64,000 nucleotides of DNA from the NCBI RefSeq assembly GCF_000179235.2, contig NZ_CP039373.1, positions 620,032 to 684,031 of the forward strand, written 5' to 3'. The notes beneath the pieces were generated by a model. The model worked only from the letters and a program-made list of their open reading frames with translations. It made no database searches and was not told the DNA's origin. Positions 10,088 to 63,113 of the stretch are shown piece after piece. This DNA comes from Synechococcus sp. CB0101 (GTDB lineage Bacteria; Cyanobacteriota; Cyanobacteriia; PCC-6307; Cyanobiaceae). Positions within the stretch are counted from its first letter, which is position 1, and every line of letters begins with the position of its first letter. Position numbers and translations under genes: made by a program.

Positions 10088-10525
10088 ATGAGCTTCGACG
10101 CCCGCAGCCTTGAGCGCCTGCAGCAACTGGGCCGCAGCCTGCCCAAACCCCTGCCCAAGCCGGAAGCGGAGCCAGCACCTGCCCCCGCTAGCCAACAACG
10201 CCATCGGGTGGAAACGGAAACCGACCCTCAGGCCCTGTTCCGCGAGCTGATGCAGGTGAGCCCCGATGGCAGCGTGCCGCCCCACCTGATGGACCGGTTG
10301 CGCCAGGCAGAAGCCGATCAGCAGCGCCAGCGCCAGGCCGAGCAGCGACAGGCCATCCAACGGCAGAGCCCCCAGGGCCCCTCCGCCAGCTCAGGCCTGC
10401 AGCCGCGCGGTGCCAACAACGAACTGCGCCCCAATCGCCAGCGCCGCCCTCCCGCCAACAGCGAGGAACTCGAGCTCTACACCGCCTTCCAGCAACTGCT
10501 GCTGGAAGGCGACGAAGAGGACTGA
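10088..10525 (+). CDS. Conserved hypothetical, Gln/Arg-rich protein
   Basis: A 145-residue hydrophilic protein starting MSFDARSLERLQQLGRSLPK, preceded by a good ribosome binding site (GAGGAGAG, 7 bases before the ATG). It has a Pro-rich stretch (residues 18-37), a Gln/Arg-rich probable helix or coiled coil around residues 75-100 (RLRQAEADQQRQRQAEQRQA) and a short C-terminal 'ELELYTAFQQLLLEGDEED'. No membrane segment or catalytic motif is visible. It probably forms an operon with the pentapeptide gene. Function unknown. Confidence 0.68.
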   Translation: MSFDARSLERLQQLGRSLPKPLPKPEAEPAPAPASQQRHRVETETDPQALFRELMQVSPDGSVPPHLMDRLRQAEADQQRQRQAEQRQAIQRQSPQGPSASSGLQPRGANNELRPNRQRRPPANSEELELYTAFQQLLLEGDEED

Positions 10526-10546
10526 TCAACAGCGCTCAACCTTGAA

Positions 10547-11674
10547 CTAGGGCTTGAGAACAGTGACCTGCGCAGGCTGATCCAACGGCATCACTTTGAT
10601 CGCAGCACCATCGAGGGGCAGCTGATCGAAGTTGAGACTGCGCAGACCTGGATTGTCGTAGGTCTGGATGTAATACACGAGATTCTTTTGATCAGCGGCC
10701 ACCGTCCACTCGGTGATTTCATAGGTGGTGTTAGAGCCTGCACCCCCAAACGCACCACCCGGCGGCAACAGAATGCTCCCAGGTGGCAGATCAAATTGAC
10801 CGAGAAGGCGGAAGGCCGTGCCCACCTGCTGCTGCGTGGTGAGGTTGGTCGGGGCGTAGTGGCTCAACATCAGTGCGCGGATAAAGCGCGATGTAGAGAG
10901 GAAATCACCCGGCAATCCGTGCAGCCCACCGCCGGTGCTGGCCGGCGGAAGCTTCAGGCCATTCACGCTCAGCTCCGCCGGTGGCATCGCGCTGAGATTG
11001 GCGTAATTGCCAGCTGCGGCGAGGTGATACGGGAATGGCGGATCGTTGGTGTACGTGCCGGTGGGGTTATCCATCATGGTGAGCTCACCCTTGATGTATT
11101 CCACCGACAAACTCTTCCCCGTTCGATCATGCAAGGTCATGTGGATCGGCAACGGCCCACCGAACACCTTGATCGCAGCACCATTCACCAGCACCTTGGG
11201 CAAGCCACGCTTCACCTCTTCAATCGTGGCGAAGTTGGTTAGCACATAGGTGAGCAACTGAGCGCTATTGATCGAGCGCTTGGTCTGACCAGGGGGAACG
11301 CTCTGAAATTGGGCATAGCCAGCGAAGTAGAGCAGACCGCCAGCCAAGCCTTTCTCATTCATGCCATCCGGAATCACATCCTTCAGGCCGAGGGCATTGA
11401 GGCCAACCACGGCATAGCGACTGGTCCAGGCCAGGCCATTCCCGATCCCGCCATCGGGGCCATTGCCGCGCAGGGGCGTCCCGCGCTGAATCAACACAGC
11501 CTGACTGCCAAGCGGCTGGCCGAATTCCATGGTGCGGCCATACACACGGCCCCCATCCGAGCCCTTGAGCACAAAGCTGGTGCAGGCCTGAGCCGGCACC
11601 GCTTGACCCCCCAGGAGCCCCAGGGCCGCCAGTACACCGAGGGCGCGGCGGCGCCATGCCATTGCTTGGATCAT
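10547..11674 (-). CDS. Secreted linear amide C-N hydrolase (choloylglycine hydrolase family)
   Basis: A 375-residue protein. Residues 1-30 form a signal peptide ending AQA, immediately followed by Cys31 in 'CTSFVLKGSDGG'. In this Ntn-hydrolase family (bile salt hydrolase, penicillin V acylase) the nucleophile is an N-terminal Cys exposed by processing, so signal-peptide cleavage would create the active enzyme. Family landmarks include 'GRTMEFG', 'GMNEKGLAGGLLYF' and 'YTNDPPFPYHLAA' (the N-D-P region). The protein likely acts outside the cytoplasm on an amide; the substrate is unknown and acyl-homoserine lactones, peptides or polyamides are all possible. A second ATG at 11662 and an upstream start at 11728 are alternatives. 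Confidence 0.85.
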   Translation of the reverse strand: MIQAMAWRRRALGVLAALGLLGGQAVPAQACTSFVLKGSDGGRVYGRTMEFGQPLGSQAVLIQRGTPLRGNGPDGGIGNGLAWTSRYAVVGLNALGLKDVIPDGMNEKGLAGGLLYFAGYAQFQSVPPGQTKRSINSAQLLTYVLTNFATIEEVKRGLPKVLVNGAAIKVFGGPLPIHMTLHDRTGKSLSVEYIKGELTMMDNPTGTYTNDPPFPYHLAAAGNYANLSAMPPAELSVNGLKLPPASTGGGLHGLPGDFLSTSRFIRALMLSHYAPTNLTTQQQVGTAFRLLGQFDLPPGSILLPPGGAFGGAGSNTTYEITEWTVAADQKNLVYYIQTYDNPGLRSLNFDQLPLDGAAIKVMPLDQPAQVTVLKP

Positions 11675-18712: not shown

Positions 18713-21700
18713 GGCGAGCCCGAAACGCCTGGGCGGTGAGGCTGCTGAGGGCGGCCTCACTGTCACGCACGCAGAACTGATGGCCGAGGCGCACGAAACG
18801 GGTCTGGCCGTGGTGGTGCACCATCGCCACCACGGGAACGCGAACGCCGGCCTCATCCTTCTCGGTGCGGTGCTGATTGAGGCACTCGCGCAATTTGTGC
18901 TGCACAGCGATATCACTGGCCTCACTGCCTTCGAGCTCCACCAGCAACACCTTGAGCTCATCGATCACGCGGCAGTCATCCACGATCAACTGCACCTGCT
19001 CATCGCGCCGGTCCACCGAGGCCCAGATCAACAAGCGCGCATCCACCATCAGGAAATCCGCCAGGCGGGCGTAGGTCTTCGGAAACACCACGGCCTCGCA
19101 GCTGCCGCTGAGGTCTTCGAGCTGCAGCACCGCCATGCGATCACCTTTGCGCGTGGTGACAGGCCGCAGGCCCGCCACCATGCCCACCACGCTGACGCGG
19201 GTCTTATCGGCCTGCTCCTCCAGGCTGCCCAGCCCCACGGGTGAGAGCAGCTGCACCGGGCGGGTGAGCTGCTTGAGCGGGTGATCGGAGAGGTAGAAGC
19301 CCACCAGGTCTTTCTCCAGACGGAGCTTTTCGGTGGGCGGGTAGTCGGGCACCGGCGCTGCCTTGGGGGCCGTGCTCAGATCTCCGCTGCCAGCTGCATC
19401 GGCAACAGCATCAGCACTGCCGCCACCCATCAGATCAAACAGATTGCCCTGGCCGCTGGCGCGGTCGCGGGCACGGGAGGAGGCCCAATCCACGATCAAA
19501 TCGAGATCAGCCATCAGCTGGGCACGGTTGGCCTGGGGCTCGAGAGCATCGAGCGCACCGCAATGGATCAGCGATTCAAGTGAGCGCCGGTTGAGCGTGG
19601 TGCCGGGGATGCGGTCGCAGAGATCGGCCAGGGAGCGGAACGGGCCATCAGCGCTACGGGCCTCCAACAGGGCGCGAATCGCGCCATCACCCAAATTGCG
19701 CACGGCGGAAAGGCCAAACAGGATGCGGTCGCCCACGGGGGTGAAGTCGATCCCGGAGGCGTTCACATCCGGCGGCATCACTTCAATGCCCATGGCATTG
19801 CAGTTGGAGATGTAGCGCTGCACCTTGTCGGTGGTGCCGGCATTCACCGTCAGCAGCGCCGCCATGTAGGCCACTGGATAGTGAGCCTTCAGATACGCCG
19901 TTTGATAGGTCACCGCGCCGTAGGCGGTGGAATGGCTCTTGTTGAAGCAGTATTCGGCGAACAGCACCATCTGCTCAAACAGCGCCTCGGCGATCTTCGA
20001 GTCGACACCGCGCTCGGTGGCCCCCTTCACAAAGATGCTTTGGTGCTTCTCCATCTCACTCTTCTTCTTCTTACCCATCGCACGCCGCAGCAGGTCGGCT
20101 TCACCGAGTGAATAGCCGGCTAGATCCTGCGCAATCCGCATGATCTGCTCCTGATACACCATGATCCCGTAGGTCTCCTGCAGGATCGGCTCGAGCTTGG
20201 CGTGGGCGAAATCAATCGCCTCGCGGCCATGCTTGCGGTTGATGAACTTGGGAATCAGGCCGGCATCGAGCGGACCCGGCCGGTAGAGCGCCAGGATCGA
20301 CGAGATGTCCTCCAGGGATGAGGGCTTGAGATCGCGCACGATCTGGCGCATGCCGCTCGATTCCAGCTGGAAGATGCCTTCAAGATCGCCGCGGGCCAGC
20401 AGGCCGTAGGTGCCGGGATCATCGAGAGGAAGCGCATCAGGATCCACCTTCTGGCCAGTGCTCTGCTCCACCAGATCGATGGTTTTATCGATCATCGTGA
20501 GGTTTTTGAGGCCGAGGAAGTCCATCTTCAGGAGCCCCATCGACTCCACGTCTTCCATGAAGTATTGGGTGATCACCTGGCCGTCGTTGTTGCGCTGCAG
20601 CGGCACCACCTCATCGAGCGGATCAGCGGCGATCACTACACCAGCCGCATGCACACCGAAGGTTTTGTTGGTGCCTTCGATCCGCATCGCCATATCCACC
20701 CAGCGTTTCACCTGGGGATCGTTCTGATATTTCTCGCGGAATTCGGGCGCCGGTGATTCATCGCCAATCATCTCCTTAAGCTTGGCGGGCTTACCGCGCA
20801 CCACCGGGATCAACTTCGCCAAACGATCGGCATCGCCGTAGGGGATGTCGAGCACGCGGGCCACATCCTTCAGCACGGCCTTGGAGGTCATGCGGTTGAA
20901 GGTGATGATCTGGGCCACCTTCTCCTCGCCATAGCGGCGGGTCACGTAGTCGATCACCTCGCCACGGCGCTCGATGCAGAAGTCGGTGTCGATATCAGGC
21001 ATCGACTTGCGCTCAGGATTGAGGAAGCGCTCGAACAAAAGCCCGTTGGTGACCGGATCGATGTTGGTAATCCCCAGGGCGTAGGCCACCAAGGAACCGG
21101 CGGCCGAACCGCGGCCGGGCCCGACAGGGATGCCGTTCTCGCGGGCGAAGCGGATGTAATCCCACACCACCAGGAAGTAGGTGGGGAAGCCCATCTGCTC
21201 CATCACCTGCAGCTCGAAGGTGAGCCGCTCGCCGTACTCCGGCGTGAACACTTCGTTCTCCGGCAACTGAAGCCGGGCCCGCAAACCCTGCTCGCTCACC
21301 TCGCGCAGATAGCTCACCGGCGTGTGCCCCTCCGGGATCGGGAAGCGGGGCATCTGATAGCGGCCGAGGATGTCGTAGTCCTCCACCTTTTCGGCCACAC
21401 GGGCGGTGTTGGCGACCGCTTCGGCGACCACCTCCGGCTCGAGGTGATCGGCGAACAGGGCCAGCATCTCCTGCTCACCTTTGATGTATTCGGTGCCGGT
21501 GTAACGCAGGCGCTTCTCGTCGGTGACGAGCTTGCCGGTGAGGATGCAGAGCAGCGCGTCGTGGGCTTCAGCGTCGTTGCTGGTGAGGTAGTGAGCGTCG
21601 TTGGTGGCGATCAGCGGAATGCCCAGCTCCTGAGAAATACGCACCAGTTCCACGTTCACGATCCGATCTTCCGGTGAACCGTGGTCCTGGATCTCCAAGT

Positions 21701-58076: not shown

Positions 58077-58916
58077 CTAGAGGGTCTGGGAACGCTGGGA
58101 GCTCAGGATGCCGTAACGCGGTGCCAACAAGAAAGCCAACAGGAAGAGAGCGGTCTGCACCAAGACAATGCAACCGGCCGTGGAGCTATCGCTCCAGTAG
58201 CTCACGTAGACACCGATCAAGCTAGAGAGCACGCTGCTTGCGATCGCCAAGAGGGTCATCCGATCAAAGCGATCGGTGAGCAGATAGGCCGTGGCTCCGG
58301 GGGTAACCAGCATCGCCACCACCAGAATCACCCCCACGGTTTGCAAGCCCGCCACGGCCGTAAGCGAAAGCACCGAGAGCAGCATGTAATGCAGCACCCC
58401 CGTGTTGATGCCAATGGAACGGGCGTGGGTGGGGTCGAAGCAAAACAGCAACAGATCGCGGCGAAACACCAGCAGCAAACCCACCACCAGCGCTGAGATC
58501 AGGAGGGTCTGCTGAATATCTGAGCTGGAAATACCCAGCACGTTGCCAAACAGAATGTGGGTGAGATCAATGTTGCTGCGCACCTTCGACACCAACACCA
58601 GGCCCAGGGCAAAGAAGCCGGTGAACACCAGGCCAATCACCGTGTCTTCCTTGATGCGCGACTTCTGTTTGACAAAACCAATCGCTGCCACCGAGCCCAC
58701 ACCAAACACAAAAGCCCCGAGGGAAAACGGCAGGCCGAGGGCATAGGCCACCACCACACCGGGCATCACCGCGTGGGACACGGCATCGCCCATCAGTGCC
58801 CAGCCTTTGAGGGTCATGTAGCAGGAGAGCAAGCCACACACGCCGCCCACCAAAGCGCTCACCAACAGCGCTTTCACCATGAAGGCATGGCTGAGGGGTT
58901 CGAGCAGCCAGGTCAT
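58077..58916 (-). CDS. mntB: Manganese-type ABC transporter, permease
   Basis: A 279-residue polytopic membrane protein with eight to nine helices, including 'GGVCGLLSCYMTLKGWALMG', 'DAVSHAVMPGVVVAYALGL' and 'VGVILVVAMLVTPGATAYLL'. These are conserved in ABC-3 permeases for manganese and zinc. Specificity comes from the binding protein of the same operon (see mntC), which looks Mn-type. It overlaps the ATPase gene by four bases upstream and the DUF4336 gene follows 2 bases downstream. Confidence 0.93.
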   Translation of the reverse strand: MTWLLEPLSHAFMVKALLVSALVGGVCGLLSCYMTLKGWALMGDAVSHAVMPGVVVAYALGLPFSLGAFVFGVGSVAAIGFVKQKSRIKEDTVIGLVFTGFFALGLVLVSKVRSNIDLTHILFGNVLGISSSDIQQTLLISALVVGLLLVFRRDLLLFCFDPTHARSIGINTGVLHYMLLSVLSLTAVAGLQTVGVILVVAMLVTPGATAYLLTDRFDRMTLLAIASSVLSSLIGVYVSYWSDSSTAGCIVLVQTALFLLAFLLAPRYGILSSQRSQTL

Positions 58917-59665
58917 GGCTTGGGCACCATCCCACCGAAGGTACGCGCCAGGTTCTCAGGGGTGAACACCGCGCTGGTTTCGCCGTAGGCCAGCACGGTG
59001 CGGTTGATCAGCACCACCAGATCGCAGAAATCGCGGATGTGGCCCAGGTCATGGGTGGAGATCAAGATCGTGCGACCTTCCTGGCGGAACTGCAGGAACA
59101 GCTGAGCCATGAGTTGCTCCGTACGCACATCCACGCCATTGAAGGGTTCATCCAGCAACAACACCGAGGCGCGTTGAGCAATGGCCCGGGCCAGAAACGC
59201 TCGCTTGCGCTGGCCACCAGAGAGGGCGCCGATCGGCCGCTGCGCCAGATCGAGCAGATCCACCCGCTGCAGCGCATCGCGTACAGCCACCCGATCCGAC
59301 TGACGCGGCCAGCGCAGCACGTTCATCGAGCCATAGCGGCCCATCATCACCACATCCCAGACGGAGATCGGGAAGTTGCAATCGATCCCTTCGCTCTGCG
59401 GCACGTAGGCCACCGCCTGATCGCGCTGGGCCGCCAGCACGGGCTGGCCATTGATGCGAATGCGCCCATGGGAGGGGCGCACAAACCCCGTCAGCGCCTT
59501 GAACAGAGTGGATTTGCCCGCTCCATTCATCCCCACCAACCCGCAGATGCAGCCGGCGGGAAGGCTGAGATCGGCGTCGTAGAGCGCCACAGTGCCGTTG
59601 TAATCCACGCACAGCTGCTCCACCTCAATCCGCGGAGCGGCCATGGGGGCGTATCGCACGCTCAT
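58913..59665 (-). CDS. mntA: Manganese-type ABC transporter, ATPase
   Basis: A 250-residue ATPase with Walker A 'GLVGMNGAGKSTLFKALTGF', signature 'ALSGGQRKRAFLARAIAQRA' and Walker B 'VLLLDEPFNGVD'. The Q-loop 'YVPQSEGIDCNFPISVWDVV' is typical of Mn/Zn import ATPases. Both ends overlap neighbours by four bases (ATGA), so it is coupled to the binding protein and the permease. It works on the cytoplasmic face of the plasma membrane. Confidence 0.94.
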   Translation of the reverse strand: MSVRYAPMAAPRIEVEQLCVDYNGTVALYDADLSLPAGCICGLVGMNGAGKSTLFKALTGFVRPSHGRIRINGQPVLAAQRDQAVAYVPQSEGIDCNFPISVWDVVMMGRYGSMNVLRWPRQSDRVAVRDALQRVDLLDLAQRPIGALSGGQRKRAFLARAIAQRASVLLLDEPFNGVDVRTEQLMAQLFLQFRQEGRTILISTHDLGHIRDFCDLVVLINRTVLAYGETSAVFTPENLARTFGGMVPKP

Positions 59666-60657
59666 GGCGCTGGCTTCGGGGTGAGCGGGCGGCTCAGACC
59701 TTGCATGATCAGGTTCACGTTGTGGCGTTGCAGGGCCAGGAGGCTGGGGGCTGGGCCGCCGCTTCCCGAGAGGGAATCCACATAGAAGGTACCCCCGAAT
59801 TTGGCTCCCGTAGCCCGGGCCACTTCCCGCTGCGCCTCATCGCTCACGGTGCTTTCGCAAAACACAGCCGGCACCTGCCGCTGCTTCACCGTGTTGATCA
59901 AGCGGGCCAATCGCCGTGGTGTGACCTGGGTTTCGGCATTGACCGGCCAGAGGTAAGCCTCATCGAGGCCGTAGTCGCGGGCGAGGTAGCTGAAGGCACC
60001 TTCACAGGTGACCAGCAGCCGCTGGCTGGGCGGCACATCCGCCAAGGCCGATCGCAGCTCGGCATCGAGGGCTCTGAGCTGCTGCTTGTAAGCCAGCCCA
60101 CGGGCTCGAAAGTCTGGGGCACCGGCTGGATCCAACTGACTGAACCCCTCCACCAGCCGATCCACGTAATGCTCAGCCCGCTTGGGCGACATCCAGGCGT
60201 GGGGGTTGGGTTTGCCCGCATAGACATCCCCCTCGATCAACAACGGCTCCATCCCATTGCTGAGGGTGAGGGTTGACGCCTGTCCGGAGGCAGCCACGAA
60301 GCGGTTGGCCCAACGCTCCAGGCCCAAACCGTTCTCCACAATCAAATTGGCGCCCTGCGCAGCCTCGAGATCGCTGGGGGTGGGCTCATAGCCATGGATC
60401 TCAGCACCAGGCTTGGTGATCGAGCGCACCTCCAAACGATCACCGGCCACCTGGCGGGCCATGTCAGCCAGCACCGTGAAGGTGGTGAGCACCACAGGCT
60501 TGCGGGTGGCATCCGCAGAGGCGTTGGTGGAAGGCGGAGCCGAGCTGGAACAACCCACCAAAACAGCGGTGAATAGTGCTGCGACACCTCGTGCGACACC
60601 GCGTGCGCCACCAAGGCCGACCCGCTGAACGGCGACAGCTGCAGACACTGAAGCCAA
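59662..60657 (-). CDS. mntC: Manganese-binding lipoprotein of the ABC transporter
   Basis: A 331-residue cluster A-I binding protein. 'VLVGCSSSA' is a lipobox (Cys36). The metal ligands fit Mn-type proteins: His88 ('EIHGYEPT'), His153 ('PNPHAWMS'), Glu219 ('TCEGAFSYL') and Asp294 ('YVDSLS'), matching the His-His-Glu-Asp set known from Synechocystis MntC. Zinc-type ZnuA has a third His in place of this Glu and usually a His-rich loop, both absent here. It captures manganese for the photosystem II cluster. The start is a TTG at 60657 or GTG at 60648. First gene of the operon. Confidence 0.92.
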   Translation of the reverse strand: MASVSAAVAVQRVGLGGARGVARGVAALFTAVLVGCSSSAPPSTNASADATRKPVVLTTFTVLADMARQVAGDRLEVRSITKPGAEIHGYEPTPSDLEAAQGANLIVENGLGLERWANRFVAASGQASTLTLSNGMEPLLIEGDVYAGKPNPHAWMSPKRAEHYVDRLVEGFSQLDPAGAPDFRARGLAYKQQLRALDAELRSALADVPPSQRLLVTCEGAFSYLARDYGLDEAYLWPVNAETQVTPRRLARLINTVKQRQVPAVFCESTVSDEAQREVARATGAKFGGTFYVDSLSGSGGPAPSLLALQRHNVNLIMQGLSRPLTPKPAP

Positions 60658-60737
60658 AAGGACCGGATTGCTAAGGAGATTTTAGGTCGCAGATCCAACC
60701 GAATGAGACTTCAGGAGACAGCTCCATCAGCCGCAGG

Positions 60738-60923
60738 TCAAGCGCGCTGGCTTGCAACCCATGCCGTTGCAGCTTTCTGAGTGTGCCAAGCCTGAAGCAA
60801 TTGCTTCGCCAGGTTGCGCAGCTGATCGGGATCAGCGGTTGCATCAATTGCCCGATTGAACCGTTCGATTTCAAACTGCTGGGTGATGGAAAGCTCCACC
60901 GCTGGAGATCGATCGGAATGCAT
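60738..60923 (-). CDS. Small helical protein, paralog A of the protein at 61715-61891
   Basis: A 61-residue protein, start ATG 60923 (a TTG at 60950 gives nine more). Its core 'VELSITQQFEIERFNRAIDA' and 'LRNLAKQLLQAWHTQKAATA' aligns without gaps to the + strand protein at 61715 (IELSLNQSFEVERLKREIDA and LRHLAKDLLKAWFSEQANT), so the two are paralogs about 0.8 kb apart in opposite orientation. Highly charged and helical, no membrane segment, function unknown. The 'ELSLxQxF' opening recalls the start of NblA proteins, but the rest does not match well. Located just upstream of mntC. Confidence 0.68.
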   Translation of the reverse strand: MHSDRSPAVELSITQQFEIERFNRAIDATADPDQLRNLAKQLLQAWHTQKAATAWVASQRA

Positions 60924-61012
60924 CTGTGCACCATCAAGGAGCGATGCCAAGGTAATGAAAGAGGCCGAAGATCCCGTAACAACCGCAACCAGGCGGTGAC
61001 TTGATCAGGAAA

Positions 61013-61268
61013 TCAAGGCTGAGGCTCGAGCAAAAGGTTCAGCAGATCAGCCACGCGCAAGACATGGGGATCACGTGGATCGCGACGGCGATTTGGGGTA
61101 TTTCTGACCAAGCCGCCAGAGCTCATTGCAGGTGTGTCCAGGCTCGACAGCGCGAAGCTTGCAGACCAGATTGAACACATCCTGTTGGGATAACTCACCA
61201 TCCGATTGCCACTTCAAGCTGGCGGGCTGGATGGAACGATCAACTTCGGAACACGGTTGATCCGACAC
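61013..61268 (-). pseudogene. Small gene apparently broken by a one-base frameshift
   Basis: Two overlapping reverse-strand frames look like one protein. The N-terminal part (from a GTG near 61268: 'VSDQPCSEVDRSIQPASL', then 'GELSQQDVFNLVCKLRAV', 'CNELWRLGQKYP') is in one frame and stops shortly after; the rest, 'NRRRDPRDPHVLRVADLLNL', ending at 61013, is in another. Removing one C of the CCCC run (around 61094-61099) joins them smoothly. It is either an error or a true frameshift. The family is not recognised. The region is less GC-rich than the surroundings. Confidence 0.5.
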
Positions 61269-61370
61269 GGATAAGCTGCTGCGTTCGATCAACGCTAAGG
61301 AGCACGGAGCTCGTTGCAGCGGCTTCCTCACAAAGATCGAGGGGAAGATTTTCTGAAGGTGTCGCCTTTG

Positions 61371-61535
61371 TTACGCACCCGGGTGATCGCCCTGGTGATC
61401 AGTCTCCAGGCTGAGGTCTTGCACCAGCATCAACAGGGCCATGCCCATCAAGGCCAGGGCGATGCCGGCCTGATCAGAGCCCGCCAGCTCGAGGGTGCGA
61501 GCAGCGTTCAGGTGTTGACTCCAGCTCAGACGCAT
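61371..61535 (-). CDS. Possible 54-residue membrane peptide
   Basis: An ATG-started frame of 54 codons reading MRLSWSQHLNAARTLELAGS, followed by a hydrophobic stretch (IALALMGMALLMLV) and an acidic tail. The pattern of a short soluble segment, one membrane helix and a charged end would suit a small membrane protein. No good ribosome binding site is seen. The opposite strand has a 91-codon frame, but its composition (His/Gln-rich) is typical of a shadow. Confidence 0.4.
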   Translation of the reverse strand: MRLSWSQHLNAARTLELAGSDQAGIALALMGMALLMLVQDLSLETDHQGDHPGA

Positions 61536-61714
61536 GGATGGGGAAGCGGCTTTGTGGTGAGAACGACTCTCCCGGCAGGGCGCTGTTGAGCGACGTCGAT
61601 TTCACAAACAGTCACGGTTGGCAATTGCTGACGCACCGATCCGCTGCGTAACCACCGCTACGTCCGCCATCAGCAGCAGCCATAGGTTTCGGGGCGTCCC
61701 ATCGTGATGAGCCG

Positions 61715-61891
61715 ATGGCCCCGATCGAACTCAGCCTCAATCAATCCTTTGAGGTGGAACGTCTCAAGCGCGAAATTGATGCCCAGAGCGACGCCGAGCA
61801 GCTCCGCCATCTGGCAAAAGATTTGCTCAAAGCCTGGTTTAGCGAGCAGGCCAACACGCAGCAGGCCATTCAGCAACAGTTCTATTCCTGA
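61715..61891 (+). CDS. Small helical protein, paralog B of the protein at 60738-60923
   Basis: A 58-residue protein starting MAPIELSLNQSFEVERLKRE, then 'IDAQSDAEQLRHLAKDLLKA' and a Gln-rich end. It aligns gaplessly to the reverse-strand protein at 60738-60923 (matches at ELS, Q, FE, ER, ID, QLR, LAK, LL, AW). Charged and helical, no membrane span. Function unknown. It is convergent with the glycosyltransferase gene, with only 4 bases between the stops. Very short, so easily missed in annotation. Confidence 0.72.
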   Translation: MAPIELSLNQSFEVERLKREIDAQSDAEQLRHLAKDLLKAWFSEQANTQQAIQQQFYS

Positions 61892-61895
61892 AGGG

Positions 61896-63113
61896 TCAAG
61901 AGAGCTGGCGTCCCTTCCAGGTCCATCCGCGACCTGTGAGGGTGCGCCACACCGATGTTGGGCCAATGGCACCCACCAGGAGGCCTCCGGCCCCCATCAA
62001 CCACCAGAGGTGCAGCGGCACCTGGAATTGGCGCCGGCTCCAGACACGCAGAGCCAATTGCAGCAACACGCCACATCCCGCCAGTAGCAACAGCACCAGC
62101 CACCAGCTGCGTTGCCATGGCATCCACCAACTCAGCAACAAGCCGGCACCCAGCAACAACCACGGTCCGCTGAACATCAACACCACCACCCCAGCGGCAG
62201 ATAAGGCTTTGGGAACGCTGGAATCCAGGCCCAGGAACCAGTTCTTGCTCCAGCCCTCCCAAAGCGCGGCGAAGTTGGCATACATGTTGAGCTCCGCCAC
62301 ATCAAGCCCCAGCAAGTAGCGCAGCCGATACCCCTGAGTTTTGATCCGGCGAGCCAGGGCAAGATCCTCCACCACTTCAGCGGCCAAGGCGCGATGGCCG
62401 CCGATCTGCTCGTACACAGGGCGGCGAAACAGCATGAAAGGCCCGGCGGCAAAGGCCACAGGGCTCGAAGGATCATTGGCTGCCTGAATCGGAAAACCCA
62501 GGCCCAGCAAACTGGCCATGATCGGCTGCACCATCCATTCCGCCAGGCATGTGCATCCCAGGCGCGGCGCCAGGCTGAGCAGATCGGCCTGATCGTGCAG
62601 GGCCTGCAGCAGGGCGCGCCGCAAGGCATCCGGCTGCAGGCGCACATCGGCGTCGATGAACAGCAACCAATCGCTCTGGGTCTGCTCGGCGGCTTGAGTA
62701 CAAGCCCAGTTCTTGCCCACCCAACGTTGATCGCCTGGTCTGGGGCCCGCCTGCAGCAAACGAAATCGCTCCGGCGGGCAGCCACTGGCAGCTGCCGCCG
62801 CTGCCGCCAGGGCGCCTGTGGCATCGCTGGAATCGTCGTCAACAACCAGCAACTGCCAGGAGCTGCACGGCATTTCACTGGCCAGCACATGGCTGACGCA
62901 GGCTTCGATATTGGTGGCCTCGTTGTAGGCCGGAACCACAACCGTGAGCGACTGCTCAACCGGTTGCTGATCCGCTGGCAGCTCCAGCAAACGCGGCGCC
63001 ACAGCGAAGACGCGCTGAAGACCCGCCAACAGGATCAGCAGCCCGAGGCAGGCGGCACCGGCCAAGCCGACCAGCACAACCGGCAGCCAAGGAAAGTTCA
63101 GTAACAGCGTCAC
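61896..63113 (-). CDS. Family 2 glycosyltransferase, membrane-bound
   Basis: A 405-residue protein. An N-terminal membrane helix is followed by a GT2 domain: 'VVVPAYNEATNIEACVSHVL', 'LLVVDDDSSDATGALAAAAA', and the metal-binding 'LLFIDADVRLQPDALRRALL'; 'AAEVVEDLALARRIKTQGYR' holds the E-D-x-x-L acceptor motif. Two or three C-terminal membrane helices follow (residues about 305-385). Acceptors could be a carotenoid, lipid or hopanoid-type molecule; the sequence does not tell. It overlaps the small membrane gene upstream by four bases. Confidence 0.88.
   Translation of the reverse strand: MTLLLNFPWLPVVLVGLAGAACLGLLILLAGLQRVFAVAPRLLELPADQQPVEQSLTVVVPAYNEATNIEACVSHVLASEMPCSSWQLLVVDDDSSDATGALAAAAAAASGCPPERFRLLQAGPRPGDQRWVGKNWACTQAAEQTQSDWLLFIDADVRLQPDALRRALLQALHDQADLLSLAPRLGCTCLAEWMVQPIMASLLGLGFPIQAANDPSSPVAFAAGPFMLFRRPVYEQIGGHRALAAEVVEDLALARRIKTQGYRLRYLLGLDVAELNMYANFAALWEGWSKNWFLGLDSSVPKALSAAGVVVLMFSGPWLLLGAGLLLSWWMPWQRSWWLVLLLLAGCGVLLQLALRVWSRRQFQVPLHLWWLMGAGGLLVGAIGPTSVWRTLTGRGWTWKGRQLS

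Follow-up and report, generated by a model that had tools for sequence, protein, structure and literature searches.

A conserved family of small, distantly NblA-like proteins with NtcA-type promoters and a divergent partner gene in picocyanobacteria

In the genome of Synechococcus sp. CB0101 we found evidence of a family of small proteins, represented by the paralogs ORF1 and ORF4, which, as judged from sequence, is real and conserved, is linked to nitrogen-type promoters, resembles NblA and comes with a new partner gene, ORF3; the biochemical steps that we attach to it are ones that we infer. NblA marks the light-harvesting antenna (the phycobilisome) for destruction on nitrogen shortage. The family looks like a distantly NblA-like, nitrogen-controlled stand-in for NblA, and we consider it rather probable that ORF1 and ORF4 are NtcA-induced, NblA-like proteolysis adaptors of picocyanobacteria.

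The window, by which we mean the whole stretch of 64,000 nucleotides analysed (C1 620032-684031 of a genome that is a single contig of 2.79 Mb), carries four small genes between a Mn/Zn-type ABC transporter with a PF01297 binding protein and a family 2 glycosyltransferase (Table 1). ORF3, ORF2 and ORF1 are transcribed toward the transporter genes, with ORF1 immediately upstream of them in the same orientation, and ORF4 is divergent. The sequence-only reading of this stretch had described the 61- and 58-residue proteins as inverted small paralogs with a common core, which we could confirm: both frames are open, the core is present in both, their identity is 46% (alignment A1), and a search of the whole genome with ORF4 returned four places with E values from 4.6e-33 to 2.2e-11, a relatedness far above chance. 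A second cassette, copy B, has identical gene order and orientation and lies at about 2248.5-2249.7 kb (L005 6480-7687). Copy B adjoins genes for a DnaG-like primase, a DnaB-like helicase and a sigma-70 region 2 protein (L005 7844-13711), surroundings that may mark an integrated element.

Table 1. Cassette features, in positions of the window
Feature	Position	Strand	Remarks
Metal-binding protein gene, PF01297, Mn or Zn uptake	59662..60657	-	Downstream of ORF1 in several Vulcanococcus-type loci
ORF1, NblA-like, 61 aa, more widely conserved paralog	60738..60923	-	PF04485 14.6 bits, E 0.045; dN well below dS
Putative NtcA-activated promoter of ORF1: GTTGCGGTTGTTAC, 21 nt, TACCTT	60949..60989	-	One mismatch vs GTAN8TAC / TAN3T
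ORF2, intact small protein, 65 aa	61071..61268	-	GTG start inferred from copy B
ORF3, conserved two-helix protein, 54 aa, divergent partner gene of NblA-like family	61371..61535	-	
Putative canonical NtcA-activated promoter of ORF4: GTAACCACCGCTAC, 21 nt, TAGGTT	61648..61688	+	Sole GTAN8TAC in 64 kb
ORF4, NblA-like, 58 aa, second paralog	61715..61891	+	phrog_27081 E 1e-6; dN well below dS

All four small ORFs showed dN well below dS in 19/19 comparisons (with copy B, L095-L097 and L103), made over conserved blocks of 41-50 codons with synonymous sites saturated in several, and therefore all four look like real genes, none of them broken. ORF2 had earlier been taken for a broken small gene, a view that does not hold: it shares 69% identity with its copy B counterpart, shows pN of 0.03-0.05 against pS of 0.54-0.74 in comparison with L095-L097, and has homologs in 116 of the 151 picocyanobacterial genomes searched. 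On this substitution pattern, both ORF2 and ORF3 are intact genes, conserved and kept by purifying selection. The family of ORF2 consists of small proteins with the motif KWQxDGELSxxD... and has no name; since its homologs extend to Prochlorococcus-like genomes, we rejected the idea that ORF2 is a regular component of the NblA-like module. The GC-poor pocket reported before was found (57-59% in the 500-base bins of 60501-62000, against mostly 60-70% in the window), but it is mild and not unique, because five further bins (10501-11500, 20001-21000, 58501-59000) also lie just below 60%. The small cassette proteins had no significant match in NCBIfam, Rfam at its gathering threshold gave no match in 60000-63000, and a scan for sigma-70 promoters and terminators yielded a single terminator-like site, no more than chance would give, and not one promoter.

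The pair was also considered as a functional part of the Mn/Zn operon, and this was rejected. Adjacency of ORF1 and the transporter was seen in L095, L096, L097, L104 and L099, but most of the 80 loci in our set of relatives (out of 131 confirmed) lie elsewhere, and we therefore read it as a matter of position rather than function. The order ORF4/ORF3-ORF2-ORF1 next to the metal transporter is found in L096, L097 and L095 (where the contig breaks off within the gene for the binding protein). L104 shows it too, but no ORF3 was detected there, and L098, L099 and L103 show it in part.

The earlier remark that the opening of the two proteins loosely resembles NblA proved to be the right lead, although the likeness stays below the Pfam cut-off. 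The NtcA-type promoters, the co-occurrence with phycobiliprotein genes and the copies on viral contigs, all described below, agree with it. In the profile search that had been proposed, ORF1 fell short of the 25-bit cut-off of PF04485 (Table 1) and ORF4 was not among the matches listed; across the 151 genomes no place of the family reached that cut-off, the best scoring 22.7 bits. Nevertheless, when these genomes were searched in six frames with PF04485, at least 21 of the 54 matches at E<=1 fell on family members against about 0.005 expected, matches that are not independent since many are orthologs, and the only two matches in this genome were its two ORF1 copies. Nine of the 28 members that make up profile A1 matched PF04485 at E<=10 (best E 1.9e-4). 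Aligned with hhalign to A2, an alignment of 20 true NblAs, profile A1 reached 92.5% probability over its N-terminal 29 columns only, and A3 (82 members) reached 90.1% over 27 columns; the alignment with NblA ends after the first helix. Scored with an HMM of A2, 80 members from host and viral loci, non-redundant at 90%, had a median of 9.8 bits against -0.7 for shuffled sequences, and 71 of them exceeded the 99% shuffle level whereas nine did not (best shuffled score 11.7 bits), scores that do not amount to 80 independent tests because the members are related.

The features shared with NblA are a length of about 55-65 residues, an LSxxQxF motif that starts helix 1, a predicted helix-loop-helix, occurrence in hosts as well as on viral contigs, and an NtcA-type promoter, the last being typical rather than strictly defining. 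Within LSxxQxF, the L, Q and F are invariant or nearly so in A1 and A3, and S or T follows the L; the second E of the ELSLEQQF of NblA is not retained. Other parts differ. True NblAs (A2) have a C-terminal LKHQW region with near-invariant K and W, in place of which the family (A1/A3) has xWVxxQQ; LKHQW-type regions have a phycobilisome-binding role in NblA. FExER and LAKxLLxAW are signatures of the family's own and not of NblA. The C-terminal NblA region is thus absent, and on all these grounds we call the family NblA-like and keep it out of PF04485.

Nitrogen control is suggested by the sequences of the upstream regions. The canonical form of NtcA-activated promoters is described in PMC9430850 and PMC3898017, and control of nblA by NtcA in Synechococcus elongatus in PMC4390884. 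The intergenic region between ORF3 and the family gene carries GTA-N8-TAC followed, about 21 nt on, by TAN3T. Among 36 unique divergent intergenics (what remained of 39 segments of 38 selected loci once duplicates had been merged and a secondary segment dropped), the strict box plus -10 was present in 24 (null mean 0.018); if one of the six box positions was allowed to mismatch, all 36 had it (null mean 10.7, maximum 19). Scored over nine positions, of which no more than one could mismatch, the promoter was found in 33/35 divergent regions (null 0.67) and before 46/50 family genes without ORF3 (null 0.4), the latter mostly copies in an abcF-htrA context; this makes 79 of the 85 host upstream regions tested, a sample with few of the other marine and Prochlorococcus-like paralogs. 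Perfect nine-position matches numbered 23/35 and 19/50, respectively. In the 2.79 Mb genome the perfect motif with N21 spacing has only two sites, one ahead of ORF4 and the other ahead of the copy B ORF1, and because the reversed control pattern occurs nine times, the strength of these sites lies in their position and not in their number. A site of the ORF1 type stands at a similar distance in copy B, L098, L103 and L104 (perfect) and in L095, L096 and L097 (one mismatch), and one-mismatch boxes were found at copy-B-type ORF4 genes (L002, L007, L103) and at the marine-type L009 and L257. At many Cyanobium/Synechococcus loci (such as L032, L109 and L113) a conserved TTACAAC-NN-GAAACACTGACA block precedes the NtcA box by about 13 nt; we know of no NtcA or -10 consensus that it fits, and it may bind a second regulator. 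In Synechococcus WH7803 a small ORF, RS12335, lies between nirA and nitM, and PMC9430850 reports it to be strongly upregulated under nitrogen lack and nanomolar nitrate (+193.92 vs +238.82).

Homologs in other genomes, on which the case for the pair had been made to depend, were found in abundance. ORF4 alone as query had relatives in 95/151 genomes of its taxonomic family, and profile A1 found the family in 109/151, with up to seven copies per genome. In a class-wide sample of 96 genomes the four matches all fell within its eight picocyanobacteria, and profile A1 matched none of the 88 non-picocyanobacterial genomes. Among the names that the relatives bear are Vulcanococcus, Cyanobium, Synechococcus (WH 5701, UW105, UW140, S. 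lacustris), Aphanothece and Microcystis elabens, and cyanobacterial MAGs are also among them. At 46 of the 80 loci (within L121-L174) the family gene is flanked by genes for an ABC-F ATPase and an HtrA-type protease in conserved order. The accessory look once ascribed to this region fits the paired cassette, seen in Vulcanococcus-type genomes (a label coined in this analysis; two of these records are so named), but not the family as a whole, which was matched in 84 of the 85 sampled genomes that we class as phycobilisome-bearing, that is, with at least three PF00502 phycobiliprotein genes (the exception being G002). This makes the family a concrete, deletable candidate for antenna breakdown in starved picocyanobacteria. 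Canonical NblA shows a different distribution: PF04485 was matched above the Pfam cut-off in one of the 151 genomes (G109), but in 45 genomes that represent 20 other families of the class. Our searches turned up the ORF1/ORF4 family in picocyanobacteria and on viral contigs only. G109, a Prochlorococcus-like genome in about 70 contigs with few phycobiliprotein genes, yielded no family member with profile A1; its match to PF04485 (L045, G109:C41:5504-5650, 27.5 bits) may be a phage or contaminant sequence.

These distributions bear on which proteins the family might target. One could consider that ORF1 and ORF4 share ancestry with NblA and are under NtcA control, but act on other clients, such as a photosystem or enzymes of carbon and nitrogen metabolism, with paralogs of one genome serving different targets. 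The divergence of the C-terminal half from NblA, the many copies in some genomes, the divergent members kept by Prochlorococcus-like genomes and a weak relative in the Prochlorococcus phage P-SS2 would all be compatible with this. Strong members (E<=1e-10), however, track the phycobiliprotein genes almost perfectly, being found in 79 of the 85 genomes with at least three PF00502 genes and in one of the 66 with fewer, an association that is confounded by descent because the low-count genomes look like Prochlorococcus in size and gene count. At any strength, a family match occurs in 25 of these 66 apparently Prochlorococcus-like genomes, in the form of a divergent member, and because such genomes and a Prochlorococcus phage keep relatives, the target of the family need not be phycobilisomes. 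On balance we regard adaptors for other clients as a rather unlikely explanation.

A scan of IMG/VR placed family members on 79 contigs (79 of 123 pattern-matching stretches), which makes the family a likely auxiliary gene of cyanophages; Pfam annotation would miss these copies, because the family scores below the cut-off. No ORF3 or ORF2 homolog was detected at these viral loci at E<=1e-3, in stretches of about 4-8 kb each, and in contrast to the hosts, the NtcA promoter was found at one mismatch in 2/55 phage copies (null 0.75) and as a perfect match in 0/55. The neighbours at 18 of the 79 loci were classified with PHROGs on the basis of 20 long ORFs. Genes for a portal, terminase or tape-measure protein stood near the phage copies at 5/18 loci (L181, L183, L202, L210, L225), and replication genes, for a helicase, primase or ribonucleotide reductase, at 8/18 (L175, L189, L199, L201, L209, L215, L217, L218). 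At L230 and L236 the neighbours matched families of unknown function or methyltransferases, and those of L178, L192 and L195 gave no PHROGs match. The family itself has a significant HMM match to phrog_27081, a family without assigned function in PHROGs, with ORF4 (Table 1), with ORF1 (E 2.6e-4) and with four IMG/VR members (E 1.4e-6 to 0.072), over about 40 residues. Among GenBank phages only distant relatives were found, in S-SCSM1, Bellamy, S-CRM01 and P-SS2. The S-SCSM1 relative is annotated as a phycobilisome degradation protein (nblA) and is 40% identical to ORF4, with 76% of the query aligned (E 0.03). The IMG/VR copies diverge less, their best segments being 47-72% identical to ORF1. 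The P-SS2 relative is weak (E 1e-3), and its record states 'similar to WH7803_0965'; a literature search for SynWH7803_0965 found nothing.

The idea of a divergent picocyanobacterial nblA is already in print. PMC9602691 describes distant cyanomyovirus nblA homologs, which group with 'picocyanobacterial nblA genes' taken from Nadel et al. 2019, and PMC7439483 mentions a divergent nblA-like gene in Synechococcus WH8102, which is likely a member of the ORF1/ORF4 family. In the paper listings and text passages covered, the NtcA promoters of the family, the ORF3 partner, the paired cassette and the spread on viral contigs are unmentioned.

A different possibility is that the small proteins, under NtcA control, inhibit a metabolic enzyme or act on it as allosteric partners, and that their likeness to NblA reflects the convergence of short helical hairpins. 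Glutamine synthetase inactivating factors are small regulators that could serve as a model for this. The AlphaFold2 monomer of ORF1 has two helices (13-28 and 32-60, pLDDT 85.5), and among the best 50 of 63 PDB matches that Foldseek returned for it there were only common helical arrangements, NblA not among them and none at E<=0.001, with VIA-align at 2, an outcome that by itself speaks neither for nor against NblA. A search of hmmsearch type with A1 against PDB sequences retrieved NblA (1ojh) only at E 0.65, over the N-terminus only and behind unrelated chains. The lack of a decisive fold match, the confinement of the NblA alignment to the N-terminal half, and the scores of two phage relatives on the A2 HMM, which are at background (S-SCSM1 -0.2 bits, S-CRM01 0.9 bits), would suit an enzyme regulator. 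Against it, the six-frame PF04485 search singles out the family far beyond chance, most members stand above the 99% shuffle level, and occurrence on viral contigs fits the known phage nblA genes, as described in PMC9602691. We consider this alternative improbable.

ORF3, the possible membrane peptide of the earlier reading, is in host genomes a conserved divergent partner gene of the NblA-like family. Its homologs occupy 33 places in 28/151 genomes. At 30 of these a family gene stands no more than 1 kb away, and at 28 the two genes are divergent and separated by 163-201 bases; the three places without a family neighbour are the weakest matches. Across 24 sequences eight columns are invariant, and the TGA present in two homologs falls after the conserved core. 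The predicted structure, of moderate confidence (pLDDT 73.7), consists of two helices, and NCBIfam gave no significant match for ORF3. That ORF3 and its neighbour form a toxin-antitoxin or phage-defence pair might be suggested by small divergent genes present in several copies, one of the two also on viral contigs, but their promoters are NtcA-type and, because many family genes, including the abcF-htrA copies, have no detected adjacent ORF3, we do not favour this reading and hold it to be very improbable.

Returning to NtcA-induced, NblA-like adaptors as the preferred reading, we hypothesise the following sequence of events. When nitrogen is short, NtcA bound to 2-oxoglutarate would turn on the ORF1 and ORF4 genes; the second helix and the C-terminal tail of their products would then bind phycobiliproteins, and the conserved N-terminus (LSxxQxFExER) would hand these to a Clp-type protease, with the outcome that the antenna would be degraded for amino acids. 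ORF3, a new partner protein to test, probably tunes the adaptor, either as a docking partner or as a brake. At the viral loci covered the adaptor stands by itself, and phages probably use it to take the antenna apart while they infect; under the fullest form of this reading they could do so unrestrained, because they would have taken the adaptor without its ORF3 partner and without the nitrogen switch. The complete picture, in which phycobilisome-bearing picocyanobacteria, without canonical NblA, degrade their antennae via this separate family of NtcA-driven adaptors, ORF3 acts in part of the lineage as a dedicated brake or docking factor and phages use the adaptor unrestrained, is one that we offer tentatively, as a possibility less likely than not. 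The two cassettes of the genome studied here would allow for a graded or multi-target response. In three genomes (G061, G131 and G004) two family genes lie in tandem, and in G061 and G004 the pair stands beside an ORF3 homolog.
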